DNA of 64,000 nt from Haloprofundus salilacus (GTDB lineage Archaea > Halobacteriota > Halobacteria > Halobacteriales > Haloferacaceae), in assembly GCF_020150815.1 (NCBI RefSeq), contig NZ_CP083724.1, positions 310,001-374,000 of the forward strand, in the 5' to 3' direction. The notes under the pieces were generated by a model. The model was not told the DNA's origin. It was given only the letters and a program-made list of their open reading frames with translations, and made no database searches. Made by a program: the position numbers and the translations under genes. Of this stretch, positions 48,818 through 63,624 are shown piece after piece. Position 1 is the stretch's first letter. Each line of letters starts with the position of its first letter.

Positions 48818-49909
48818 TCACCGACCGATATCGACGGGCGCTCCGCTCTCGGCCGCGCGGTGAATCGCCTCGATGGTTCGCATATCGACGAGTCCGTGTT
48901 CGCCGTCCGGGTAGACCTCTCTCCCCGAGAGGAGTCGGTCGGCGAAGTAGTCGAACTCCTCTCGCATCTCCTCGACTGCCTCGAACGAAGCGTGAGAGAT
49001 CTCGACAGTCACGTCCCCCCGCGACGCGTGGAGAGTACACTCGCCGTGGAATGCCGGTCGCAGTTCGAGCTGTCCCTCGGTGCCGGTAATCTTCAACTGG
49101 GTGTCGGCGTGCGCGCGCTGGCTCGCGGTACAGACCATCTGTACGTCGTCTTCGAGCATTGCGATGAACGACGACCGCTCGTCGGGAACGTCGGCGAACG
49201 CTTCGTGGTGAGACGCCATTCGAGACTCGACGGTCACGGGGTCGCGTCGGAGCAGGTATCGTGTGGTGTTTATCGAGTAGATGCCGAGGTCCATCACCGA
49301 CGTGCCGTAGCCGGTGAGTTCGGAGTCGAGGCGCCACTGGTCGCGGTCGGGAATCATCTCCAACAGCGGCTGTGAGTTGTTTCCGTACACCTGCACCGGT
49401 TTTCCGATGAAGCCCTCCTCGACGAGTTCGTGCGCACGACGGACCGCGGGGTCGGTCTGCATCCGGTAGGCGACCATCAGCGGGGTGTCGGCGTCGTCGC
49501 AGGCGTCGACCATTCGCTCAGCGCGCTCGACGCTCGCTTCCATCGGCTTCTCGCAGAGGACGCCCTTGCCAAGTTCGGCCGCGGTTTCGGCGTACTCGAG
49601 GTGGAACGCGTTCGGCGTCGCCACGTACACCGCGTCGTACGCCTCGGCGGCGGTTCCGGCGTGATATTCGTCGTAACTGATTCCGTGGTTAACGCCGTGC
49701 TCGTCAGCGATTCGGGTCGCCTTCTCTTCGGAGCTACTGACGAGGACAGTCGCCTCACAGAACTCCGATTCCGCTATTGCCGGGAGCGCGACGTCTGTCG
49801 TCCACCAGCCAAGTCCGATCAACGCGTAGCGAACCGTTCCCCCCGTCGACTGCTGCCAATCGCGGTCAGTGTACTGGTCTATCCAGCCGGCGAGTGTCAT
49901 GTCGTACAA
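48818..49909 (-). CDS. D-xylose 1-dehydrogenase (NADP+)-like Gfo/Idh/MocA protein
   Basis: 363 residues. RYALIGLGWWTTDVALPAIA, VTPNAFHL-type strand (VYVATPNAFHLEYAETAAEL), LCEKPMEASVERAERMVDAC, VAYRMQTDPAVRRAHELVEE and EYFADRLLSGREVYPDGEHG follow the haloarchaeal xylose dehydrogenase (Gfo6/XacA) pattern closely. That enzyme oxidises xylose to xylonolactone. In this galactoside island it may instead act on galactose or arabinose. It stands upstream of the KD(P)G aldolase on the minus strand's other side and appears singly transcribed. Confidence 0.85.
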   Translation of the reverse strand: MYDMTLAGWIDQYTDRDWQQSTGGTVRYALIGLGWWTTDVALPAIAESEFCEATVLVSSSEEKATRIADEHGVNHGISYDEYHAGTAAEAYDAVYVATPNAFHLEYAETAAELGKGVLCEKPMEASVERAERMVDACDDADTPLMVAYRMQTDPAVRRAHELVEEGFIGKPVQVYGNNSQPLLEMIPDRDQWRLDSELTGYGTSVMDLGIYSINTTRYLLRRDPVTVESRMASHHEAFADVPDERSSFIAMLEDDVQMVCTASQRAHADTQLKITGTEGQLELRPAFHGECTLHASRGDVTVEISHASFEAVEEMREEFDYFADRLLSGREVYPDGEHGLVDMRTIEAIHRAAESGAPVDIGR

Positions 49910-49975: not shown

Positions 49976-50635
49976 TCACTCCGTCCGCGCCCGGTCGACG
50001 GCCGCGCGGAACTGTTCTGCGCGCTCGGTCAACACCTCGTACTCCCCTGCGGCTATCGCGTCGGAGTCGACGAGGCTGCTGCCGACGCCGACGGCCGTCG
50101 CTCCCGCGGAGACGAACGCCTCGACGTTGTCGAGCGAGACGCCGCCGGTCGGTACGAGCGGCAACTGCGGGAGCGGCCCGCCGAGACTTCTGACGTAGTC
50201 GGGTCCGAGCGACGACGCGGGGAAAATCTTCAGCAGGTCCGCGCCCGCTTCGTACGCCCGGACGGCTTCTGTCGGCGTCTGCACGCCCGGGGCGACGACC
50301 GCCCCGTAGCGGTTGCACGTCTCGACGACGCCGGGGTCGAAACTCGGCGTGACGACGAACGACGCTCCAGCCATCAGTACCGCTCGGGCGGTCTCGCTGT
50401 CGAGTACCGTTCCGGCCCCGACGAGCGCCTCCGAGTCGTCGAATGTCGACGTGACCGCCTCGAGCGTGTCGAGGACGCCCGCCGTGTCGGCGGTTATCTC
50501 GACGGTGTCGACGCCGCCGGCGACGAGCGCGTCGACGACTTCGATGGTTCGGTCGGCGTCGACGCCGCGGACGATGCCGACGACGCCGTTTTCGGCGATT
50601 CGTGTGTACGCTGATTGTTTTGATATTTCGCTCAT
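49976..50635 (-). CDS. kdgA: 2-keto-3-deoxy-(6-phospho)gluconate aldolase, class I
   Basis: 219 residues of the KDPG/KHG aldolase family. NGVVGIVRGVDADRTIEVVD, GVDTVEITADT with the catalytic Glu46, EALVGAGTVLDSETARA, FVVTPSFDPGVV and the Schiff-base lysine in DLLKIFPASSLGP (Lys136). It splits 2-keto-3-deoxy-6-phospho sugar acids into pyruvate and glyceraldehyde 3-phosphate, the last step of the modified Entner-Doudoroff or De Ley-Doudoroff route. It completes the galactonate pathway begun by the dehydratase at 53487. No KDG kinase is found in the window. Confidence 0.92.
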   Translation of the reverse strand: MSEISKQSAYTRIAENGVVGIVRGVDADRTIEVVDALVAGGVDTVEITADTAGVLDTLEAVTSTFDDSEALVGAGTVLDSETARAVLMAGASFVVTPSFDPGVVETCNRYGAVVAPGVQTPTEAVRAYEAGADLLKIFPASSLGPDYVRSLGGPLPQLPLVPTGGVSLDNVEAFVSAGATAVGVGSSLVDSDAIAAGEYEVLTERAEQFRAAVDRARTE

Positions 50636-50845
50636 AATCGCCAGTATCGCTGGTCAGCCTGTTCGTGGCATCCAGTTCGGTCTCACTCTCGCGGCCACCT
50701 ACTCAAACGTTCGGTTCGAGGGTATCCTCTCCGCCCACCGTTCGACGACGTGGTTCGCGAACGCGTAAGCGAAGATGTGTCTCAGAAACGCATAAGACGT
50801 GAAAAATGGATGCAGGATGGTTACTCAGCGAAGCGGCCGTCTGAG

Positions 50846-51220
50846 CTACTCCGGCCGAAGCTCTCTCATCCCGATGTCGACGTCGCCAGTCTTGGTTTTC
50901 ACCGACTCGCCGGTCCGACTGTCGAAGAGGTACAGCGCCTCCTCGTCGAACGTGATACGGACTGTCTCGCCTGCTCTCGGCCGGACCGTACTGTCGACGC
51001 GGGCGGTCATGTCGGCGTCCTCAAACACGTGCTCGTCGAGTAGCTCGAGCACTTCGTCGAGCCACGCGAAGTCGAACTCGCCGCGCTCCGGCTCCAGACG
51101 AGACCACGCGAACTCGCCCATGCGAACGTACTCGACGCCGCCCTCGGCCATCTGTCCGACGTCGACGGCCCAGCGACTCGGATTCCAGTGCTCGGGAAAG
51201 TAGCAGACTCCGACTTCCAT
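50846..51220 (-). pseudogene. Chimeric remnant: GH42 beta-galactosidase 5' end joined to an ABC-ATPase 3' end
   Basis: 124 residues in one frame. The first 55 or so (MEVGVCYFPEHWNPSRWAVD, YVRMGEFAWSRLEPERGEFD, FAWLDEVLELL) are the N-terminus of a GH42 beta-galactosidase, normally near 670 residues. The rest (MTARVDSTVRPRAGETVRIT, FDEEALYLFDSRTGESVKTK) is the TOBE end of a MsmX-type sugar ATPase, as seen at 28650-28850 and 63450-63600. The junction is near 51045-51060. A deletion between two genes of one orientation explains this. The GH42 promoter side, divergent from GH4, is retained. Confidence 0.8.
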
Positions 51221-51336: not shown

Positions 51337-52644
51337 ATGCCTAGGATCACGTTCATCGGCGCCGGAAGTATGGTCTTTGCCCGGAAACTCATCGGCGACA
51401 TTCTCTCCTTCGAGGAGCTCTCAGACAGCACCATCACGCTGATGGACATCGACGAGCACCGTCTCGAACAGACGACCCGCATCGCGGAGGCGATGGTCGA
51501 AAACAGTGGCGTCGATGCGGCCATCGAGTCGACGACCGACCGTCGCGCAGCGCTCGACGGCGCGGAGTACGTGCTCAACATGATCAACGTAGGCGGCACC
51601 GAACCGTTCGAGAACGAGATACGCATTCCCGAGAAGTACGGCGTAGAACAGGCCATCGGCGACACGCTCGGTCCCGGCGGCATCTTCCGTGCGCTCCGGA
51701 CCATTCCCACGATGCTCGACATCGCGGCGGACATGGAGGAGCTCTGTCCTGATGCGCTCTTGATGAACTACACGAACCCGATGGCGATACTCTGCTGGGC
51801 GTTGTTCGAGGCGACCGAGGTCGAAACCGTGGGTCTCTGCCACAGTGTCCCGCACACCGCGGAAGCCATCGCCGACTACGTCGGCGTGCCGAAGGAGGAA
51901 CTCGATTACTGGGTCGCCGGCATAAACCACATGGCGTGGTTCCTCGAGTGCAAACACGACGGCGAGGACCTCTATCCGCAACTGGAGGAGGCGATGGACG
52001 ACCCCGAGACGTACCAGCGCGACACCGTCCGCTTCGAGATGATGCGTCATTTCGGCGCATTCCCCACCGAGTCGAGCCACCATCTCAGCGAGTACGTTCC
52101 CTATTTCCGGACTGACGCCGAAACCATCGAACGGATGGAGGGCACCGGCTACGCCGAGCGGATGGCGACAGCGACGTATCTGGAAGGCTGGAAGCGGCGT
52201 TCGGAGGAGCGCGACGGCGCGCTCGCGGACATCGACCCCGAGGAGGCCACCGTTGAACGGTCCGAGGAGTACGCCTCCCGCATCATCCACTCGCTGGAGA
52301 CCGACACGCCGCGACGGTTCAGCCTCAACGTGAGCAACGAGACGAACGCCATCGGAAATCTTCCGGCGGAGGCCTGCGTCGAAGTGCCGTGCTTCGTCGA
52401 CGGAACGGGCATCCACCCGTGTACGGTCGGCGATCTACCCCCCGAACTCGTCGGACTCGTCCGGACGAACGTCAGTGTCCAGCAACTTGCAGTGCAGGGT
52501 GCGCTTGACGGGGACCGCGAGGTGGTCCACCGCGCGGTAAAACTCGACCCGCTCACCGCCGCAGCCCTGAATCTCGACGAGATTCACGAGATGACCGAGG
52601 AACTCATCGCGGCGAACGAGGCGTACCTGCCAGTTCTAGAGTAA
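51337..52644 (+). CDS. GH4 family glycosidase (alpha-galactosidase/alpha-glucosidase type)
   Basis: 435 residues. NAD-binding start ITFIGAGSMVFARKLIGDIL, LMNYTNPMAILCWAL, metal-site cysteine and histidine in GLCHSVPHTAEA and WVAGINHMAWFLEC, and ECK-type substrate residues; GDTLGPGGIFRALRTIPTML is typical of the MelA-like branch. GH4 enzymes cleave by NAD-dependent oxidation at C3 and elimination, and need Mn2+. ATG 51337 starts the Rossmann strand. A TATA-like GCTTATCAC lies 20-30 bases upstream; it is divergent from the GH42 remnant. Confidence 0.92.
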   Translation: MPRITFIGAGSMVFARKLIGDILSFEELSDSTITLMDIDEHRLEQTTRIAEAMVENSGVDAAIESTTDRRAALDGAEYVLNMINVGGTEPFENEIRIPEKYGVEQAIGDTLGPGGIFRALRTIPTMLDIAADMEELCPDALLMNYTNPMAILCWALFEATEVETVGLCHSVPHTAEAIADYVGVPKEELDYWVAGINHMAWFLECKHDGEDLYPQLEEAMDDPETYQRDTVRFEMMRHFGAFPTESSHHLSEYVPYFRTDAETIERMEGTGYAERMATATYLEGWKRRSEERDGALADIDPEEATVERSEEYASRIIHSLETDTPRRFSLNVSNETNAIGNLPAEACVEVPCFVDGTGIHPCTVGDLPPELVGLVRTNVSVQQLAVQGALDGDREVVHRAVKLDPLTAAALNLDEIHEMTEELIAANEAYLPVLE

Positions 52645-52708: not shown

Positions 52709-53485
52709 CTAGTCGCGGTAGTTCGGCAGCGTGTCGTCTTGCATGACCGCCGTCCGTCCGCCGTCGACGAGGAGATGCGTGCCGGTGACGAATCCGGCGT
52801 CGTCGCTGGCGAGGAAGGCAACGGCGCCGGCGACGTCTTCGGGCGCTCCGAGTCGGCCGACCGGGTGGATCGACTCGAGGTGTTCGCGCTCGGCGTCGTC
52901 CATCTCGTCGAGGGTTCGATCGACGGCGACCCAGCCGGGATTTACGGTGTTCACCCGGATATCGGGACCGAAATCCAGCGCCATCGCGCGAGTCATCCCA
53001 TTGATACCCGCCTTCACCGCGTTGTACGGGAACATCTTCGGCATCGTCAGGAATGCGTGGTTCGACGAGACGTTGGTGACGGTGCCGCGCTCCATCCGCT
53101 CGGCGGCGTGCTTCGCGCAGAGCCAGTAGGCGCGGAAGTCGGTCTCGACGACGAAGTTCCAGTCGTCGAGCGTCGCCTCGCCGGCTCCGGTGTTCGTCTC
53201 GACGCCGGCGTTGTTCACGAGGTGATCGAGGCGGCCGAACTCGTCGACGGTCGCCTCGACTAGCGCCGCGATGTCGTCGGGGTCGCGCATATCCGCGCGG
53301 ACGAACTCGGCGACGCCGCCAGTCTCGCGGATATCCGCGACGACGGCCTCGCCGGCTTCGGCGGTCCGTCCCGTAACGACGACCGAGGCACCCTCGTCGG
53401 CGAGCCGTCGAGCGATTCCGGCGCCGATACCGCGTGTCGATCCCGTGACGAGCGCGACCGATCCTTCGAATCGAGCGTCGGTCAT
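52709..53485 (-). CDS. Short-chain dehydrogenase, probable galactose/sugar 1-dehydrogenase
   Basis: 258 residues. Cofactor motif ALVTGSTRGIGAGIARRLAD, NNAG (HLVNNAGVETNTG), catalytic Ser in TNVSSNHAF and YxxxK in FPYNAVKAGINGMTRAM, and the C-terminal GFVTGTHLLVDGG. Last gene of the galactoside operon, one base after the galactonate dehydratase. Oxidation of galactose to galactonolactone would feed that dehydratase, which is why I suggest this role. The sequence itself only shows an SDR. Confidence 0.88.
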   Translation of the reverse strand: MTDARFEGSVALVTGSTRGIGAGIARRLADEGASVVVTGRTAEAGEAVVADIRETGGVAEFVRADMRDPDDIAALVEATVDEFGRLDHLVNNAGVETNTGAGEATLDDWNFVVETDFRAYWLCAKHAAERMERGTVTNVSSNHAFLTMPKMFPYNAVKAGINGMTRAMALDFGPDIRVNTVNPGWVAVDRTLDEMDDAEREHLESIHPVGRLGAPEDVAGAVAFLASDDAGFVTGTHLLVDGGRTAVMQDDTLPNYRD

Positions 53486-53486
53486 C

Positions 53487-54638
53487 TCACCACTCTGCGA
53501 TGCCGCCGTCCTCGTGTCGCCAGACGGGGTTGTGCCAGTTGACGTTCTGCTGGGCGCGCTCGCGGACGTACTCCTCGTCTATCTCGATGCCGAGACCGGG
53601 GTCCCGCGACAGCTCGATGTAGCCGTCGTTGTACTCGAAGGGGTCGGTGTCGACGAGATAGTCGAGCACGTCGCTCGTGGCGTTGTAATGGATGTCGAGG
53701 CTCTGTTCCTGGATGAGCGTGTTCGGGGTGCAGGCGTCCACCTGAACGCACGCGGCGAGCGCGATGGGTCCAAGCGGACAGTGCGGCGCGACCGCCACGT
53801 CGTAGGCCTCGGCCATCGTGGCGATCTTCCGCACCTCGGTGATGCCGCCGGCATGCGAGAGATCGGGTTGGATGACGTCGACGACCCCCTGCTTGAATAT
53901 CTCCTTGAAGTCCCAGCGCGAGTACATCCGTTCGCCCGTCGCGATGGGCGTCGTTGTGTGCGCCGCGATTTCGGGGAGCGCGTCGTTGTGCTCCGGGAGC
54001 ACCGGTTCCTCGATGAACATCGGGTTGTACGGCTCGATAGCCTTCGCTAGGCGCTTTGCCATTGGCTTCGACACCCGGCCGTGGAAGTCGACGCCGATGT
54101 CGGCGTCGTCGCCGATGGCGTTGCGGACCTCCGCGATGCGTTCTTCCGCTTCGGCGATGGCGGCGGGCGTGTCGATGCGCTTGAGCTCGGAGGTAGCGTT
54201 CATCTTCAGCGCCGTGAAGCCCGCGTCCATCTTCTCGCGGGCGGCCGCTCCGACGTCGGCGGGGCGGTCACCGCCGATCCACTGGTAGACGCGCACCCGG
54301 TCTCGCGCCCGTCCGCCGAGAAGTTCGTAGACGGGGGCATCGTAGTGTTTCCCCTTGATGTCCCACAGCGCCTGGTCGATGCCGGCGATGGCGCTCATGA
54401 GGACGGGTCCGCCGCGGTAGAAGCCGCCGCGGTACATCGTCTGCCAGTGGCGCTCTATCTCCATCGGGTCTGCGCCGAGGAGATAGTTGTCCAGCAGTTC
54501 CTCGACGGCGGCCTTGACGGTCTTGGCGCGGCCTTCGACGATGGGTTCGCCCCAGCCGACCGTACCGTTGCTCGTCGAAATCTTGAGGAACAGCCATCGC
54601 GGCGGCACCTCGAACAGTTTGTAGTCGGTGATTCGCAT
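53487..54638 (-). CDS. dgoD: D-galactonate dehydratase
   Basis: 383 residues, enolase superfamily. Recognisable DgoD features: GWGEPIVEGRAKTVKAAVEE, HWQTMYRGGFYRGGPVLMSA, FTALKMNATSELKRIDTPA, GVDFHGRVSKPMAKRLAKAI (metal Asp plus catalytic His), FIEEPVLPEHNDALPEIA (Glu), IATGERMYSRWDFKEIF (Glu) and VAPHCPLGPIALAACVQV. It converts galactonate to 2-keto-3-deoxygalactonate. It abuts the GH2 stop with no gap, so galactoside cleavage and galactonate dehydration are co-expressed. Confidence 0.94.
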   Translation of the reverse strand: MRITDYKLFEVPPRWLFLKISTSNGTVGWGEPIVEGRAKTVKAAVEELLDNYLLGADPMEIERHWQTMYRGGFYRGGPVLMSAIAGIDQALWDIKGKHYDAPVYELLGGRARDRVRVYQWIGGDRPADVGAAAREKMDAGFTALKMNATSELKRIDTPAAIAEAEERIAEVRNAIGDDADIGVDFHGRVSKPMAKRLAKAIEPYNPMFIEEPVLPEHNDALPEIAAHTTTPIATGERMYSRWDFKEIFKQGVVDVIQPDLSHAGGITEVRKIATMAEAYDVAVAPHCPLGPIALAACVQVDACTPNTLIQEQSLDIHYNATSDVLDYLVDTDPFEYNDGYIELSRDPGLGIEIDEEYVRERAQQNVNWHNPVWRHEDGGIAEW

Positions 54639-57371
54639 CTATTCTACCCCCACCGTCTCGACTAGGGTACTTAGGAGGTACGCTCCGACCGGTTGGTCGG
54701 CGTCACCGACGCGGAAGCAACAGCCGGCGACGACTCCGTTACCGTGCGGGCGACGGAGCAGGGCGGCGCCCTCGTTGGCGAGCCACCCTTCAACGTAGCC
54801 GACGTCGAGGCGGTCGTCGTCGTCCACGTCGGTTGCGATTTCATAGGGGTAGAGCCCTTCGAACGCCCAGTCGAGGCGCTCGCCGTCGACGAGGTCGCCG
54901 AGCAGCGAGCCGTCGTGGTAGAGCAGCGACGCGACGAGGTTCCAGCTCTCGGTCTCCGGGAGGGTTCGGTACTCGAAGACAGCGTCGTCCTGCAGGTGGC
55001 CGTCCACGTCCGGGACGACGACGACCGAGCCGCCGGATTCGGCGAACGCGGCCAAGTCATCGGAGACGGAACCCGAAGCGACCGCGATGTCGGCGTCCGA
55101 GAGGTTCGCGACCGTCTCGAACCCGAGTGCGTCGAACGACTGTGTGAGGCGGTCCTCAGCGCTGTATATTTGCGCGTCGGCGTCGGCGCGAACCGCGTCG
55201 CGGGAGACGACGGTGAGCGTCTCGGTGGTCGACGCTGACGTCTTGTCTGCACTGTCAGCGTCGCCGAGCGTCGCCGCCACGTCGACGGGACCAGACGCCT
55301 CTTCGGGGACGTCGAGTTCGACCGTCTCCGCGCGAGCGACGCCGTAGCCGTCGAGCGAGACAGGTACGTCGACCGTTTCGTCGAACGCGTCAAGCGTTAC
55401 CGGGCCGTCGATTTCAACGGTGGTGTCGTTGACGAGCGTTACGTCGACAGCGACGGTGTCGCCCGCCCAGACGGCACGGGATTCGGGTTCGACGCGGACG
55501 TAGACGGGCGCGTTGACCGACGCGAACTCGTCGACAAACGACTTCTCGTCGCGGAAGTAGTCGAGGATGCCGTTGAACTCCCACTCGATGTCGCTGAACT
55601 CCGTGATGACGTAGCCCGCGAGCGACTCGCGGACGCGCATCTCGCCAATAACGTCGGCGACGGAGACCGACTCGCGACCTTGCCACGCCTCCGCGAGGTT
55701 GCCGAGGTCGTCGAAGACATCCGAGAGCGGCGACTCAGCGAAGCGCTCCTGCACGCCCTCGGGCCGCTTCAGCTCGTCGTCGAGGAATTCGTGGGAGAAC
55801 CACGTCGGTTCGCCGTCGTAATGCTCCAGCAGCTTCGGCACGTCGCAGAGGCCCCAGGTGCCGAACTCGGAGACGATTGCGGGCGTCGACTCGGGGTCTG
55901 TCTCGGTCACGCCGTAGTTCGCACTGGGGTCAGACTCGATGCTGTCGAGGTCGTCGGCCCACGCCTCCGCGCGGTCGGGACTGACGAAGTAGCGGTGGTA
56001 GTCGTTGATGTCGGTCGCGACGTGCGCCCAGCCGGAGTTGTCGCAGGCGAGCCGCGTCGGGTCGCGCTCCTTTGTCTCCTCGTAGAGCGCCGCGAGGTAC
56101 TCCTGCTTCTCCTCGTCGGTCCAGAGCGGCTCCTCGTCCTCGTGCCCGCCGATGCCCCACTCTTCGTTGTAGAGGCTCCACGCGATGACGCTTGGGCGGT
56201 TGAAGTCGCGCTCAATGAGGCCGAACAGCTGTTCTTTCACCTCGCGCTTCGAGCGCTCGGTGTAACGGTCAGGGTTCGCCGGTTCCTCCCAGACAAGGAT
56301 GCCGAGTCGGTCGGCGAGTTCGACGAAGTCGGGGTGCGCGGGTTTGATGTGTTTTCGCAGGAGGTTGAAGCCGAGCTGTTTCGCGGTCCGAATCTCCTCC
56401 TCGAAGAGGTCCTCATCGAACGGCCGGTAGAGCGTGTCGGGGTAGTAGCCCTGGTCGAGCGCCCCGCGCATCGTGAACGGCTCGCCGTTGAGCAGCAGCG
56501 TCGTCCCGTCGTGGGAGACGCTCCGCATCCCGAAGTAGTCGGTCGCCTCGTCGACGACCTCGTCGTCCGTCTCCAGGCTGACGCGTACGTCGTACAGCGT
56601 CGGTGAATCGGGCGTCCAGTAGTCAGGGTCGTCGAGATCGACCGTCGCGGTGCCGACGCCCCTTTCGACATCGAATCGCGCGTCGGCGACCATGTCGCCG
56701 TCATGTTCGACGATGACTGTTCCTTCGAGGTCGGCCGGGATGGCCGCCTCGTCGCCGTTAGCGATGTCGACCGTGACGTGGGCGGCGTCCACGTCGAGGT
56801 CGGGCGTCACGCGTATGGTTTCCACGTGGACGGCGGGCCGCACCTCAACGCCGACGCGCTGCCAGATGCCGCTGACGCGCGTATACCACGGCTTCCCCTG
56901 TTTGCCGTGCGGAATCTCCTCGATGTCTTCGGGGTCGTGGACGCGGACAGCGACTGTGTTGGTGCCGGGCGTCGCCTGTTCGGAGACGTCGAACTCGAAG
57001 GGGAGGTAGCCGCCCTGGTGGTCGCCGACGCGCTCGCCGTTGACCCAGACGGTCGTCTCGTAGTCGACGGCGTCGAACGTCAGCGCGATGTACTCCTCGG
57101 GGTCGAACTCGGGGAGTTCGACGCTCCGGCGGTACCAGGCGGCGCCGGTGTACTCGCGGAGCGACTCGTCCTCCTGCCACGAGTGCGGCACCTCGACGGT
57201 GGCGGCGTCCTCGGGCGACCATCGGGCCCCGTTTCGGAACCACTCGGAGGTCTCACCCTCGTCGTCGGGGTCGAGGATGAACTCCCACGTCCCGTCGAGG
57301 TCGGTGCGGGTGCGGTACGATTCGTCTGCGCCCGTCGATGGACGGGCACGTTTAGTGATATCGTTCGTCAT
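54639..57371 (-). CDS. GH2 family beta-galactosidase
   Basis: 910 residues. Sugar-binding domain (TWEFILDPDDEGETSEWFRN, VEVPHSWQED, AAWYRRSVELPEF), immunoglobulin-like domain, then the TIM barrel: FNLLRKHIKPAHPDFVELAD, VIAWSLYNEEWGIGGHEDEE with the acid/base Glu, and PAIVSEFGTWGLCDVPKLL with the nucleophile Glu. The last 300 residues are acidic beta domains. No signal peptide, so substrates are imported first. The protein starts four bases inside the stop of the YesL-like gene. Beta-galactoside specificity is inferred from the DgoD neighbour; beta-glucuronidase or arabinosidase activity is possible in GH2. Confidence 0.88.
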   Translation of the reverse strand: MTNDITKRARPSTGADESYRTRTDLDGTWEFILDPDDEGETSEWFRNGARWSPEDAATVEVPHSWQEDESLREYTGAAWYRRSVELPEFDPEEYIALTFDAVDYETTVWVNGERVGDHQGGYLPFEFDVSEQATPGTNTVAVRVHDPEDIEEIPHGKQGKPWYTRVSGIWQRVGVEVRPAVHVETIRVTPDLDVDAAHVTVDIANGDEAAIPADLEGTVIVEHDGDMVADARFDVERGVGTATVDLDDPDYWTPDSPTLYDVRVSLETDDEVVDEATDYFGMRSVSHDGTTLLLNGEPFTMRGALDQGYYPDTLYRPFDEDLFEEEIRTAKQLGFNLLRKHIKPAHPDFVELADRLGILVWEEPANPDRYTERSKREVKEQLFGLIERDFNRPSVIAWSLYNEEWGIGGHEDEEPLWTDEEKQEYLAALYEETKERDPTRLACDNSGWAHVATDINDYHRYFVSPDRAEAWADDLDSIESDPSANYGVTETDPESTPAIVSEFGTWGLCDVPKLLEHYDGEPTWFSHEFLDDELKRPEGVQERFAESPLSDVFDDLGNLAEAWQGRESVSVADVIGEMRVRESLAGYVITEFSDIEWEFNGILDYFRDEKSFVDEFASVNAPVYVRVEPESRAVWAGDTVAVDVTLVNDTTVEIDGPVTLDAFDETVDVPVSLDGYGVARAETVELDVPEEASGPVDVAATLGDADSADKTSASTTETLTVVSRDAVRADADAQIYSAEDRLTQSFDALGFETVANLSDADIAVASGSVSDDLAAFAESGGSVVVVPDVDGHLQDDAVFEYRTLPETESWNLVASLLYHDGSLLGDLVDGERLDWAFEGLYPYEIATDVDDDDRLDVGYVEGWLANEGAALLRRPHGNGVVAGCCFRVGDADQPVGAYLLSTLVETVGVE

Positions 57372-58108
57372 TCGTGATGGTAGAGTGCGGTTTCAGCGCG
57401 ATACAGCGTTTGAGAACGGCGTTCCCCCGCGGTGTCGTCCGACAGGTCGTCGTAGAGAAACGCATGCAGCGAGAACGCGAGCGTCGGGAAGAGGAACGCG
57501 AACCCGACGGTGGTGAGCGCCGTCGCGACGAGGATGGCGGCGGTGAGAAGCGCCACCGCCAGCGAGAGTGTCGGCTGCCCCGACACACGGCGTCGGCCCT
57601 CGGCGAGCGCCGAGAGCGCCGACTCGCCGCGAGCGAGCGCGACGAAGGCGGGGAGCAACACCAGGACGGTGTAAAACGTCGCGTAGGCGCTCAGGACGGT
57701 CAGCACGAGCGCGAGCGTCGTTCCGACACGCACGAACTCGGCGGCGTAGAGGAGACTTACTCCGCCGAGCAGCAGCGGGAACACGCCGAGCAACGTCGCG
57801 TGCAGGAACTGCCTACGCACCGTGGCGAGCACGTCCCGCTTGTCGACGTGTCCGTCCGCGCGGAGCGACCGAATCGCGGCGTACGCGCCGACGGTTGCTG
57901 GTCCGAGGGTGACCACCGGGAGCGAGGCGAGCGTCCACAGGAGGCTCACCCCGACGAGTGCGAACGCGTTGTCGTAGGCGAATCGCCCCGTCTGGCGGAT
58001 CGCCTTGCCCAGCCGTTCGGCGTCGTGTTTCTCCTCCGAGTCGGCCTCGCGCCCCGCCGCTCCGGCAGCGGGTCGGCGCGCCGATTTCGGGTCGTCTTCC
58101 CCCGTCAT
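57368..58108 (-). CDS. DUF624/YesL-like membrane protein
   Basis: 246 residues. An acidic cytosolic N-terminus is followed by RFAYDNAFALVGVSLLWTLA, VVTLGPATVGAYAAIRSL, LHATLLGVFPLLLGGVSLLY, LALVLTVLSAYATFYTVLVL and ATALTTVGFAFLFPTLAFS, five hydrophobic helices as in YesL of Bacillus pectin and sugar operons. YesL-type proteins accompany CUT1 importers but have no proven function. ATGA overlaps couple it to the permease before and the GH2 after it. The open frame extends upstream to 58975, but that part is antisense-like arginine-rich text inside the permease gene. Confidence 0.85.
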   Translation of the reverse strand: MTGEDDPKSARRPAAGAAGREADSEEKHDAERLGKAIRQTGRFAYDNAFALVGVSLLWTLASLPVVTLGPATVGAYAAIRSLRADGHVDKRDVLATVRRQFLHATLLGVFPLLLGGVSLLYAAEFVRVGTTLALVLTVLSAYATFYTVLVLLPAFVALARGESALSALAEGRRRVSGQPTLSLAVALLTAAILVATALTTVGFAFLFPTLAFSLHAFLYDDLSDDTAGERRSQTLYRAETALYHHE

Positions 58109-58965
58109 CCGGTCGTCCCCTGAATGCTGACCGCGCTGATGAGGTAGTCCTGCAGAAGCAGGAAGACGATGAACAGCGGAAGCGACGCGAGAAGCGTCGC
58201 CGCCATCATCAGCCCCGGTTGGAACACCTGGCTGCTCGAAAGCGTCACTAGTCCGATAGGGAGCGTGTACGACCCCTCCGACTGGAGGACGATGAGCGGC
58301 CAGAGGAACTGGTTCCAGCTGCTGACGAAGGTGAACAGCGCCAGTGCGGTCATCGGCGACTTCATCATCGGCAGCATCAGTCGCGAGTAGATCTGGAACG
58401 TTGAGAAGCCGTCGAGCCGCGCGGCCTCCTCTAGCTCGTCGGGGAAGTCCCGGAAGAACTGCACCAGCAGGAAGACGCCAAGCGGTCCGGCGGTCAGCGG
58501 CAAGATGACGCCCGCGTAGTTGCTGATGAGCCCGAGGTCGGAGATAAGGGTGTAGAGCGGGACGATGTTGACGTACGCAGGCACCATGAAGCTCGCGATG
58601 ATGAGACTGAGCACGGCGTTGCGGCCCGGCCACTCCAGTCGCGTCAGCGAGAACGCGATGAGCGAGTCGAACAGCAGCACGATTATCGTCGTGATGCCCG
58701 CGATGAGCAGCGTGTTCACCGTCCACTGGACGATGAGCGACTCCGAGAGGACGAACTGGTACCACTGGAGCGTCGGTTCCGACGGAATCCAGTGGGGCAC
58801 GTTCGAGAACATCTCCGCTCGCGGCTTCAGCGACAGCGATATCATCCACAGGTAGGGGATGAGAAACAGGAACGCCATCCCGTAGAGGGCGACGTACAGT
58901 CCCACCGTCCGTAGCGACAGCTTCTCGAGGCGCGCTCGCAGTCCGTCGTTCGTCTGTGTGCTCAT
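58105..58965 (-). CDS. Sugar ABC transporter permease (MalG type)
   Basis: 286 residues with six helices (LYVALYGMAFLFLIPYLWMI to LLASLPLFIVFLLLQDYL), EAA loop EAARLDGFSTFQIYSRLMLP, C-terminal ISAVSIQGTTG. Start overlaps the stop of the other permease. Forms the membrane channel with it. Confidence 0.93.
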   Translation of the reverse strand: MSTQTNDGLRARLEKLSLRTVGLYVALYGMAFLFLIPYLWMISLSLKPRAEMFSNVPHWIPSEPTLQWYQFVLSESLIVQWTVNTLLIAGITTIIVLLFDSLIAFSLTRLEWPGRNAVLSLIIASFMVPAYVNIVPLYTLISDLGLISNYAGVILPLTAGPLGVFLLVQFFRDFPDELEEAARLDGFSTFQIYSRLMLPMMKSPMTALALFTFVSSWNQFLWPLIVLQSEGSYTLPIGLVTLSSSQVFQPGLMMAATLLASLPLFIVFLLLQDYLISAVSIQGTTG

Positions 58966-59888
58966 GAGGAGTCACCTGCCAGTTTGTAGTTGGTCAACGA
59001 GACGGCGATGAGTACCACGAAGAGGAAGTAACCAACCGCGGCCGCGTAGCCGAACTCGTGTTGGTTGAACGCCGCCTTGTAGAGGTACATCACTAGGGTG
59101 TCTGTCGCGTTGCCGGGACCGCCGCCGGTCATGATGAACACCTGACCGAATATCTGAAACGAGCCGATGAACTGGACAACGGTGACGAACAGCAGCGCCG
59201 GTTTCATCTGCGGCAACGTGATGTCCTTGAACGCCCGCCATCCGTGCGCGCCGTCCAGCCTCGCGGCCTCGTAGAGGCGTTCGGGAACGCCCTGACGCGC
59301 CGACAGCAGGATGACGAAGTTGAAGCCCATCGTCCACCAGATGGTCGCGATGGCGACGGCGGGCATGCCGAACGTCGCCGAGTTCAGCCAGTTCGGCGGG
59401 TTGATTCCAAGCTGTGCGATGTAGTAGTTGAAGACGCCGTAGCTGGGCGCGTACAGCTCGATCCAGATGAGCGCGACGACGGCCACCGTCAGCACGTACG
59501 GGCTGAAGAACACCATCCGAAGGAACCGCCGGCCTTTCAGCTGGCGGTTGACACCCAGCGCTAGCCCCAGTGCCAGAATCACCAGCGGCGGCACCGTCAG
59601 CAGGACGAAGTAGACCGTATTCCAGAGCGCGTTCCAGAACAGCGGGTCGTTCATCATCCGGACGTAGTTCTCCAGGAAGATGAACTCCGACTGCGTGGGG
59701 TAGATGGCGTTCCAGTCGTAGAGGCTCATGTACAACCCCTTCAGCAGGGGGAACAGGAGGAAGACGGAGAACACCACCAGGTAGGGGAGCGCGAACAGGA
59801 CGCCTTCGAGCGACTCCCGGTCTCGCATCGCGGCGGTGTTCTCCTTGACCGACTGGAGTCGGCCGGCGAGTCTGTTTGTGACGGACAT
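58962..59888 (-). CDS. Sugar ABC transporter permease (MalF type)
   Basis: 308 residues. Helices from FALPYLVVFSVFLLFPLLKG to AVGYFLFVVLIAVSLTNYKL, EAA loop EAARLDGAHGWRAFKDITLP, and FIMTGGGPGNATDTLVMYLY typical of MalF-type CUT1 permeases. Starts three bases after the binding-protein stop. Intact. Confidence 0.93.
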   Translation of the reverse strand: MSVTNRLAGRLQSVKENTAAMRDRESLEGVLFALPYLVVFSVFLLFPLLKGLYMSLYDWNAIYPTQSEFIFLENYVRMMNDPLFWNALWNTVYFVLLTVPPLVILALGLALGVNRQLKGRRFLRMVFFSPYVLTVAVVALIWIELYAPSYGVFNYYIAQLGINPPNWLNSATFGMPAVAIATIWWTMGFNFVILLSARQGVPERLYEAARLDGAHGWRAFKDITLPQMKPALLFVTVVQFIGSFQIFGQVFIMTGGGPGNATDTLVMYLYKAAFNQHEFGYAAAVGYFLFVVLIAVSLTNYKLAGDSS

Positions 59889-59891
59889 CGT

Positions 59892-61232
59892 TCACTGATT
59901 CAGCGCATCGTTGACGCCCTGAGCCGCTTGCTGGATGCCCTTCTGGGGCGAAACCTGCTGGCTGTATATCTCCGCGAGGCTGTCCGAAAGCCGTTCCTGG
60001 TACGTGTCGATGTTCTCCGTCCGCGGGACGTACGCGAGTTGGTCGTTGTCGGCCATCTCGAAGAACGTCGAGAGGGTCTTGTTCCAGACGTCCGACTGCC
60101 GGAGTTCGTCGGATTCGAGGATGGACTGACTCGCCGGCAGGTGTCCCGCGTCGGTTCCCCAGACGTTGGTCTCCTGAGTGAGCCAGCGCGCGGCTTCGAG
60201 CGCCGCCTGCTGTTTTGCTTCGCTGCGGTCAGGATTCATCGGCAGCGCCAGCGAGTGGCTGTCGGCCCAAGTGTACTGCTGGTCGCCCTCGGGGTAGACG
60301 AACGGCTTGAACATGCCGAACTCGAAGTCCTGGTCGTTCGCGGGGCCGTAGAACCACGTCCCGTTGGCGACCATGGCGAGGTCGCCCGCGTAGAACGCCT
60401 TCTCCCAGCGGTTATCCGCCATCTCCGGGCGGTCCCACTCCCACTTTCCGGTAATGTTCGAGAAGTACTCCGCGACGGCGACGCCCGTCTCGTTGTTGAA
60501 GGCGGCCTGGCTCTTGTCGTCGGTGAGCAACTGACCGCCAGCCTGCCGGAGGAACGCGAGGTAGACGCGGAGCAGTTCGCCGGGACCGTACGGCGTCGGA
60601 CTGAACGCCTGTTTGTCCGTCTCGCTGACGATGGCGTTGCAGGCGTCGGTGAACTCCTGTGCCGACGATGGCGGGCTCTCGGGGTCAAGTCCGGCCTCCT
60701 CGAAGATGGATTTGTTGTAGTAGATGCCGATTGGGTGGGTGTCCAGCGGCAGCGCCAGTCGGTCCCCGCCCAGCTGAACCTGCTGCCAGATCGAGTCGAC
60801 GTACGCGCTCGACGTGTCGTCGCTGACGAGGTCGCCGAGCGGCTGGAGCACGTCCTGATAGACGGCCAGCTGCGACGCGTGGATAACCGCCAGGTCGGGT
60901 GCGTTGCCGCCTGTGAGGGCGGTGTACAGTTTGTCGTAGTACTGGTCCCAGGGGAGCCGTTGCCTGTTTATTGTGATGTTGTCGTGGCTCTCGTTGAACT
61001 GGTCGACCATCTTCTCCATCGCGTCACCGTCGCCGCCGCCGAACAGCGTCCAGTACTCGATGGTCGTCTCTCCGCCGTTGCCGCCGCCTCCACTTCCGTT
61101 CCCGCTTCCGTTCCCGCCACCGCCGCCGAGGCTGTCCGTACAACCGGCGAGACCGACGGTGCCGGCGATACCGGCCGTTTTCAGGAAGTTACGTCTGTGA
61201 ACGAGGCTAGGTGCTCTGCTTTCGCGTGGCAT
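59892..61232 (-). CDS. Extracellular solute-binding protein (family 1) of the galactoside importer
   Basis: 446 residues. N-terminus VHRRNFLKTAGIAGTVGLAG with twin-arginine motif and lipobox Cys, Gly/Ser/Asn linker, then IEYWTLFGGGDGDAMEKMVD, QYYDKLYTALTGGNAPDLAV, GIYYNKSIFEEAGLDPE, DLAMVANGTWFYGPANDQDF and GTDAGHLPASQSILESDE. First gene of the operon ending at the SDR. Upstream, CTTATACATAATCG near 61255-61270 is a good promoter candidate. The order of the cluster suggests galactosides or arabino-galactans as ligand. Confidence 0.92.
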   Translation of the reverse strand: MPRESRAPSLVHRRNFLKTAGIAGTVGLAGCTDSLGGGGGNGSGNGSGGGGNGGETTIEYWTLFGGGDGDAMEKMVDQFNESHDNITINRQRLPWDQYYDKLYTALTGGNAPDLAVIHASQLAVYQDVLQPLGDLVSDDTSSAYVDSIWQQVQLGGDRLALPLDTHPIGIYYNKSIFEEAGLDPESPPSSAQEFTDACNAIVSETDKQAFSPTPYGPGELLRVYLAFLRQAGGQLLTDDKSQAAFNNETGVAVAEYFSNITGKWEWDRPEMADNRWEKAFYAGDLAMVANGTWFYGPANDQDFEFGMFKPFVYPEGDQQYTWADSHSLALPMNPDRSEAKQQAALEAARWLTQETNVWGTDAGHLPASQSILESDELRQSDVWNKTLSTFFEMADNDQLAYVPRTENIDTYQERLSDSLAEIYSQQVSPQKGIQQAAQGVNDALNQ

Positions 61233-61352
61233 ACCACTTGAACCATATTATCGATTATGTATAAGTGTTTCTCCGGTGCGAACGGGTCGTCTATCGAATT
61301 CGAAGAACGCCTGAGAGCGCCGTTTTGTTGGCACCTCACAACTCACTACGGT

Positions 61353-62369
61353 TCACTCATCGAACACCGGGCCAGAGCGCTCGGTGCTCGGGACCCGGCT
61401 TTCGACGCGCGGCCATCCGTCTTCCCACTGCAACGGGTCGAGCATGAGCGCACGCCTCGGTGTCGAATCGATCCACTCGTTCCCCTCGACGTACGCGTGA
61501 TAGACCAGCCACTCCGTGTCGCGGTCGTCGACCACCATCGAGTTGTGGCCGGGACCGACGAACCCCGCCCCGTCGTCTACGACGACCTCGCCGCCGAAGG
61601 TCATGAGGTTCCGCCCTTGGGCGTTCACGTAGGGGCCGCGCAGCGAGTCGGCGCGGCCGACTTCGACGCGGTAGGTGCTCAACGGTCCCTCGCAGCAGCT
61701 ACCCGTGGAGCCGAAGAAGTAGTACCGCCCGTCGCGCTCGTAGAGATAGGTCGCCTCGAAGCGGTCGCCGGCTATCTGGAACGGCTCCCCAGCGAGGGTC
61801 GTCCCGTCGGATTCGAGTTCGACGCCGTAGATGCCGTGGAAACTCCCCCAGAAGAGGTACGGCGTCCCGTCGTCCTCGTAGAAGAACGGGTCGATGGAGT
61901 TCTCGACGCCTATCTCTTCGCTCGTGAAGAGTTCCCCGCGGTCTTCGAACCGGCCGCCGGGGTCGTCGCTCGTCGCGATGCCGATGCCGGGGTTCTCGTC
62001 GCCCCACGTCGACAGCGAGTAGTACATTAGGTACCGACCGTCGCGGCGAACGACCATCGGCGCCCACACGTTCCCGTACTCCTTCCAGTCGGGGGTCGAT
62101 TCGAACGCCTCGCCGACGTACTCCCAGTCGACGAGATTAGACGACCGAACGATGGGTACGACGCGTGTCCCCTCGCCGTCTCTCCAGTCGTCGGCGGTTC
62201 CGTACGCGTAGAACTCGCCGTCGGCCGCGCGGTGGACCGACGGGTCCGCCAGTATCGGTTCGAACACCGGATTCTCGTAGGTCGGTCCGCCGCGGTCCCG
62301 GTCGAGACAGCCGGCGACGCTCGTGCCGGCGGCGAGACAGACTCCTCGGAGCAGCGTTCTCCGTCGCAT
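61353..62369 (-). CDS. GH43 family glycosidase, lipid-anchored
   Basis: 338 residues. MRRRTLLRGVCLAAGTSVAG with twin arginines and lipobox Cys. The five-blade beta-propeller shows ENPVFEPILADPSVHRAADG (general base Asp), NSIDPFFYEDDGTPYLFWGS (pKa-modulating Asp) and DRFEATYLYERDGRYYFFGS (general acid Glu); FVGPGHNSMVVDDRDTEWLV is the calcium/chloride His region. GH43 enzymes cut arabinans, xylans or galactans outside the cell. It stands upstream of the binding-protein gene with 120 bases between, so it may have its own promoter. Confidence 0.92.
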   Translation of the reverse strand: MRRRTLLRGVCLAAGTSVAGCLDRDRGGPTYENPVFEPILADPSVHRAADGEFYAYGTADDWRDGEGTRVVPIVRSSNLVDWEYVGEAFESTPDWKEYGNVWAPMVVRRDGRYLMYYSLSTWGDENPGIGIATSDDPGGRFEDRGELFTSEEIGVENSIDPFFYEDDGTPYLFWGSFHGIYGVELESDGTTLAGEPFQIAGDRFEATYLYERDGRYYFFGSTGSCCEGPLSTYRVEVGRADSLRGPYVNAQGRNLMTFGGEVVVDDGAGFVGPGHNSMVVDDRDTEWLVYHAYVEGNEWIDSTPRRALMLDPLQWEDGWPRVESRVPSTERSGPVFDE

Positions 62370-62499
62370 GCTCCTCCGGTATTGTTTCGCCTACATAACG
62401 TTAGGGGTCTGACTAAACGCACCAAAAAATGCGTCCACCGGGGCACCCGGGGAAAACTATATGAATATCTGCGAAGAACCACCCAACCATACAAAAACT
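62370..62499. promoter_or_regulatory. Divergent promoter region between GH43 and ABC ATPase genes
   Basis: 130 bases. A TATA-like AAAACTATATGAA lies near 62454-62466 for the ATPase. A CCGGGG direct repeat (CCGGGGCACCCGGGG, about 62437-62451) lies just upstream and could bind a regulator. GH43 promoter sequence lies near 62385-62400 (TGTTTCGCCTACATAACG). Confidence 0.4.
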
Positions 62500-63624
62500 A
62501 TGAGTGGCGTGAGCTTTACACATGTCAGGAAGACGTACGACGACGGCGACATCGTCGCGATAGAAGATTTCAGCCTCGAGATGGTAGACGGCGACTTTGT
62601 GTCTGTCGTCGGGCCGTCAGGGTCGGGGAAGTCGACGTTGCTACGCATGGTCGCCGGACTGGAGGACATCTCCGGCGGGGAGATACGCATCGGTGACCGC
62701 GTCGTCAACGATGTCGCACCGCAGAACAGAGGCGTGGCGATGGTGTTCCAGAACTACGCGCTCTACCCGCACATGTCCGTCAGGGACAACATGTCCTACG
62801 GACTGCGGCTGACGACCGACCTCTCCGACGACGAGATCGACCGACGAGTCGAGGACGCCGCCGAGATGATGGGGATCGGCGACCTCTTAGATAAACGACC
62901 GGGACACCTCTCCGGGGGTCAGCAGCAGCGCGTTGCGACCGGCCGCGCCATCGTCCGCGAACCCGACGTGTTCCTGATGGACGAACCGCTCTCTAATCTG
63001 GACGCCAAACTCCGGATGCACATGCGGACGGAACTGCAGCGGATCCAGGAGGATCTCGATACGACGACCATCTACGTTACGCACGACCAGGAGGAGGCGA
63101 TGACGATGTCCGACCAGGTAGTCGTCCTCGCCGAGGGCGAACTCCAGCAGGTGGCACCACCGGAGGAACTGTACTACCAACCGGCCAATATGTTCGTCGC
63201 GGATTTCGTCGGGTCGCCATCGATGAACTTCTTCGACGTCGAGGTTCACGACGGCGTCGCCGTCGGCGACGGCTTCGACTACCGCCTCCCGGAGTACCAC
63301 CGCGAACAAGTGGCCGACCGCAACGGGGATGCTTTCACGCTTGGAGTCCGCCCGGAGAGCGTCTCCGTCAGCGACACCGCCAGCGCGGAGACGGTCACCG
63401 CCGTCGTCGACGTCGTCGAACCCATCGGCAGCGACACCTACCTCTACCTGCACGTCGGCGACGTCGAGTGCACCGCTCGCGTCGAAGCGAAAACTCCCAT
63501 TCAGGAGGGCGACCACATCGAACTCCAGTTCGACGAGGAGTCGCTGCACCTGTTCGACGCAGAGACCGGCGAGAACGTCGTGTACTCGTTCGAGAAACCC
63601 GAAGCACCCGTCTCCTCGGCCTGA
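62500..63624 (+). CDS. ABC sugar importer ATP-binding protein (MsmX/UgpC type)
   Basis: 374 residues. Walker A is GPSGSGKST, Q-loop VFQNYALYPHMSVRDNMSYG, signature LSGGQQQR, Walker B VFLMDEPLSNLDA, THDQEEAMTM; TOBE domain from about residue 245 ends QFDEESLHLFDAETGENV. It is the likely energy source for the importer encoded on the other strand. ATG 62500 is used because the family starts there (SGVSFTHVRKTYDDG); an ATG at 62461 is in frame. Similar over its length to the ATPase at 27721. Confidence 0.94.
   Translation: MSGVSFTHVRKTYDDGDIVAIEDFSLEMVDGDFVSVVGPSGSGKSTLLRMVAGLEDISGGEIRIGDRVVNDVAPQNRGVAMVFQNYALYPHMSVRDNMSYGLRLTTDLSDDEIDRRVEDAAEMMGIGDLLDKRPGHLSGGQQQRVATGRAIVREPDVFLMDEPLSNLDAKLRMHMRTELQRIQEDLDTTTIYVTHDQEEAMTMSDQVVVLAEGELQQVAPPEELYYQPANMFVADFVGSPSMNFFDVEVHDGVAVGDGFDYRLPEYHREQVADRNGDAFTLGVRPESVSVSDTASAETVTAVVDVVEPIGSDTYLYLHVGDVECTARVEAKTPIQEGDHIELQFDEESLHLFDAETGENVVYSFEKPEAPVSSA

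Follow-up and report, generated by a model that had tools for sequence, protein, structure and literature searches.

Positions 50846–51220 of the window (the whole 64,000-nucleotide stretch of Haloprofundus DNA analysed here) hold an open reading frame (ORF) of 124 codons on the reverse strand, with an ATG at 51218–51220 and a stop codon at 50846–50848; a GTG upstream of the ATG would add nine codons. The ORF consists of two unrelated halves fused in frame: the N-terminus of a GH42 beta-galactosidase and the C-terminal, TOBE end of a sugar ABC transporter ATPase. The GH42 half comprises codons 1–64 (51029–51220) and covers only the start of the TIM barrel. Residues 6–64 match positions 1–59 of the 376 positions of the Pfam profile Glyco_hydro_42 (PF02449; E 3e-20), residues 1–67 match the solved GH42 beta-galactosidase Bga (6lvw; E 3e-24), and tblastn comparison with intact GH42 genes gives 58–73% identity. 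The remainder of the profile, and with it a full-length barrel, is absent. The ATPase half comprises codons 70–124 and the stop codon (50846–51013) and represents the last ~55 residues of its parent, starting after MGNENF. Residues ~66–122 align with the C-termini of haloarchaeal sugar ABC ATPases, with 54–67% identity to those of the nearest operon type, in which GH42 comes first. A weak match links residues 61–107 to the ABC ATPase 7x0q (E 0.003), and the ATPase piece is so short that a Pfam search of the chimera returns no TOBE hit. Between the halves lie the junction codons 65–69 (VFEDA; 51014–51028), which fit neither parent when compared with GH42 and ATPase relatives. An earlier sequence-only reading of this DNA had recognized the chimera; its ORF and both halves stand, but the GH42 part runs to ~64 codons, not 55, and comparison with relatives moves the junction from 51040–51070 to the five codons given above.

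Neither half retains the functional core of its parent. The chimera keeps 64 of ~670 GH42 residues and ~55 of ~370 ATPase residues. The catalytic acid/base and nucleophile glutamates of GH42 enzymes sit far beyond residue 64 and are missing from the chimera, where GH42 sequence stops at codon ~64. Compared with GH42 beta-galactosidases (PF02449; 6lvw, 6y2k, 1kwg), the ORF has the N-terminus and lacks the remaining ~90%. Compared with the MalK/UgpC-type sugar-importer ATPases of GH42-first haloarchaeal operons (L116–L121), it has the C-terminal end with its own stop codon, while the nucleotide-binding domain is wholly gone, including Walker A, the signature motif and Walker B. Codon-position G+C contents in the chimera are still coding-like (0.73/0.38/0.83 and 0.62/0.47/0.82). 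Two of 25 near-invariant GH42 positions are changed in the stub, compared with 0–4 in intact relatives; because this falls within the intact range, the stub is judged to be young. Such conservation would fit a recent relic or constraint alike, and decay of the stub itself is not detectable.

The stub is flanked by a GH4 gene on the forward strand and by eda and gfo6 on the reverse strand. The chimera is followed by a spacer (50740–50845) with a lower G+C content (0.53) and a run of five T at 50802–50806, which has no homologue at this place in the congener G001. A segment ahead of eda (50636–50739) is shared in alignments with G001 and absent from operon-bearing congeners; it may have a regulatory role or be what is left of a GH42 3' end. 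The eda gene (49976–50635; PF01081) encodes an intact KDPG/KHG aldolase that is 90–92% identical in congeners, and the intact gfo6-like gene (48818–49909; PF01408) encodes a GFO/IDH/MocA dehydrogenase with 79–84% identity in congeners; both are distal genes of the old operon. On the other side, the GH4 alpha-glucosidase/alpha-galactosidase gene (51337–52644; PF02056) is the divergent neighbour of the lost operon and has the same divergent position in L113, L116, L117, L119 and L124.

The replicon that carries the window has 488,583 bases in a genome of 3.73 Mb, where no GH42 match other than the stub was found. Queries with the binding protein and first permease of an operon of the L117 type found only distant paralogues (25–41% identity), and the other ATPases found have 44–48% identity to the chimera tail. 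Both halves occur together in one ORF in no other genome among 118 relatives, 170 genomes of the family and 392 of the order, so the short protein is not one conserved elsewhere; such conservation would have undone the sequence-only reading. No publication bearing on this locus turned up in the literature on Haloprofundus or on haloarchaeal fusion pseudogenes.

Gene order and GH42 remnants in relatives

Seven loci from other Haloferacaceae (L116–L122) carry, on one strand, genes for GH42, a solute-binding protein, two permeases and an ATPase. These are the relatives with both parents in the same order that the earlier reading had proposed to look for. The parents lie on one strand with the 5' parent before the 3' parent, as a fusion by a single deletion demands. 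GH4 is divergent from GH42 in L116, L117 and L119, as in the window, and in L121 (genome G044) the ATPase gene is followed by eda on the same strand, also as in the window. From gh42 codon 64 to ATPase codon ~318, the intervening stretch measures 6.1–6.5 kb in the seven relatives. The reading that a deletion had removed the rest of both genes and whatever lay between them is thereby supported and given content, with a solute-binding protein and two permeases as the genes in between.

Within the genus, the arrangement is different. Four congeners (H. halobius, H. salinisoli, MHR1 and G002) carry an operon here in which the ATPase gene precedes GH42. Its genes have identities to the chimera of 58–61% (GH42) and 48–54% (ATPase), compared with 79–92% for neighbouring genes, and the nearest ATPase tails are those of the GH42-first operons. 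The congener operon was considered as direct parent and rejected because neither its gene order nor its low identity fits; different versions of the operon have occupied the site within the genus. An intact operon with high identity at this exact site was found in none of the genomes compared. At the inferred breakpoints, the longest shared words have 5–8 bases, which is no better than in random stretch pairs (8–98% of which do equally well), although this search for microhomology was run without the true parent sequence and so says little.

A second GH42 remnant occurs at the same site in G001 (L124:9590–10005, reverse strand). It shares with the window the upstream sequence, the first GH42 codons and the sequence ahead of eda. 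Unlike in the chimera, the start codon is gone (ATG to ACA); 36 bases and the central part of the gene are missing too, and the remnant runs into a broken GH42 C-terminus, not an ATPase end, with frameshifts and stop codons. Over the first 34 GH42 codons, differences between the window and G001 are spread evenly by codon position (8/9/11), compared with 11/7/45 over 190 codons of eda. Such an even spread is the pattern of gene decay, here in one or both of the lineages. The remnant in G001 differs from the stub and is further gone in decay, so the operon of this site has decayed by two separate routes in one genus. Two other genomes of the order (L150 in G419; L151 in G387) have GH42 genes with stop codons or frameshifts; sequencing error is possible in these cases, and they suggest that GH42 decays repeatedly.

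The G001 remnant also supplies the main loose end of a single-deletion account. Its GH42 3' end adjoins the segment ahead of eda, which fits less simply with an ATPase gene having lain between gh42 and eda. The 104 bases before eda are common to the window and G001 and are not found in operon-bearing congeners; in G001 they follow the GH42 C-terminus directly. Their first ten codons, shared with G001 (GGEDTLEPNV), may be a leftover GH42 C-terminus in the window too; the bases further upstream have no GH42 similarity.

Origin of the fusion

The ORF is very probably the scar of a galactoside operon, left by one deletion of about 6.1–6.5 kb. The ancestral operon would have had the order GH42, solute-binding protein, permease, permease, ATPase, eda and gfo6, and would have been divergent from GH4. 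A deletion from gh42 codon ~64 to ATPase codon ~318 would have taken the active site of GH42, the ABC importer as a whole and, from the ATPase, the Walker and signature motifs, leaving the gh42 start codon with its upstream region and the ATPase stop codon. Joining in frame would be a matter of luck, with one chance in three, and needs no selection. The 124-residue product, if made, would have no catalytic site and would be unable to drive transport. The old gh42 promoter may still feed eda and gfo6, with the lower-G+C spacer and its T5 run in between. With no working part of either parent remaining, the chimera is taken as a relic, most likely a young and non-functional one.

Fusions formed by multigene deletion are a known kind. 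Gallant et al. 2020 (PMC7671302) described deletion-generated gene fusions such as ppe38-71 in Mycobacterium tuberculosis, in which the loss of several genes at once fuses the beginning of one gene to the end of another and leaves the frame open. The Haloprofundus chimera is alike in this respect; it is unlike them in that its parents are unrelated in sequence and have both lost their functional core, and in that nothing points to a working product. As an example of gene loss it is clear but ordinary.

Other histories have to be weighed against a single deletion. If the congener order (ATPase, GH42, eda) were ancestral, the chimera would have arisen in several steps, for example by way of an extra GH42 copy, a duplicated stretch or an inversion, with deletions afterwards. 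That order does exist at this locus in the four congeners named above, and the GH42 3' end next to the segment before eda in G001 would agree with it. We nevertheless regard this course of events as improbable: the congener GH42 and ATPase genes are far less similar to the chimera than the 84–92% found for eda, gfo6 and GH4, the closer matches of both halves are genes from GH42-first operons or other GH42 genes, and more events are required. There is still less reason to see the fusion as an assembly error, the other outcome that would have undone the sequence-only reading. Collapse is unlikely because the genome contains no further close copy of either gene, which leaves nothing to collapse, and the flanks are colinear with G001, where GH42 at the same site decayed independently.

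Very little credence is likewise given to the idea that the chimera has been kept as a working small protein, such as a micro-protein with a regulatory or sugar-binding task. In favour are its open frame, its retained start codon and upstream region and its coding-like composition by codon position, and the deletion-born fusions of M. tuberculosis were found to be expressed (PMC7671302); however, such composition is expected of any recent relic, and a protein that lacks an active site, Walker motifs and a signature motif and recurs nowhere in the family and order genomes compared is a poor candidate for retention. Equally improbable is that the deletion-born ORF is expressed and now serves some other purpose, be it as a small regulator or as a leader for eda and gfo6. 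A single deletion is the explanation that we prefer.

The adjoining GH2 island and the cause of the loss

A GH2 island (52709–63624) adjoins the scar. It consists of a block of genes in the order SDR, dgoD, GH2, DUF624-like, permease, permease, SBP and GH43, together with an ATPase gene. The GH2 glycosidase gene (54639–57371, reverse strand; PF02837/PF00703/PF02836) has best solved matches among GH2 enzymes of several specificities, so its own specificity is putative and the label galactosidase is unproven. The island ATPase gene (62461–63624, forward strand) is an intact sugar ABC ATPase ORF with only 44% identity to the chimera tail and is thus not a copy of the tail's parent. The island is shared with a plasmid of Haladaptatus salinisoli, with 81% DNA identity over matching pieces. 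At its place, the three congeners in which the stretch is annotated or mapped (H. halobius, H. salinisoli and G001) have dgoD, SDR and IclR genes, which makes the island a gain in this lineage; it was probably acquired horizontally, as judged from these comparisons.

The sequence-only reading had suggested that the GH2 enzyme, which it called a galactosidase, and the second ATPase made the lost genes redundant. This idea concerns the cause of the loss, is compatible with a deletion, and is in keeping with the position of the island beside the scar and with its gain in this lineage. The wider distribution of the genes does not favour it. Of the 13 other family genomes that carry this GH2, 11 keep GH42, compared with 33 of 156, which is a positive association (Fisher p 7e-6, in a count of related genomes that are not independent). 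In G021, a complete GH2 island (L152:1908–14499) lies next to an intact GH42-first ABC operon (L120), and G001, which does not have this GH2, has lost GH42 here too. The GH2 enzyme and its transporter are thus unlikely to have caused the loss by making the lost genes redundant, and GH42 loss is not predicted by a genome's having another galactosidase family.

For annotation, the locus calls for caution, and the short ORF should be called neither a beta-galactosidase nor an ATPase. The scar cleanly documents the way in which entire sugar-utilisation modules disappear from haloarchaeal megaplasmids, with enzyme and importer gone in what would have been one deletion; in a sister lineage, this enzyme was lost from the same place in a different way.
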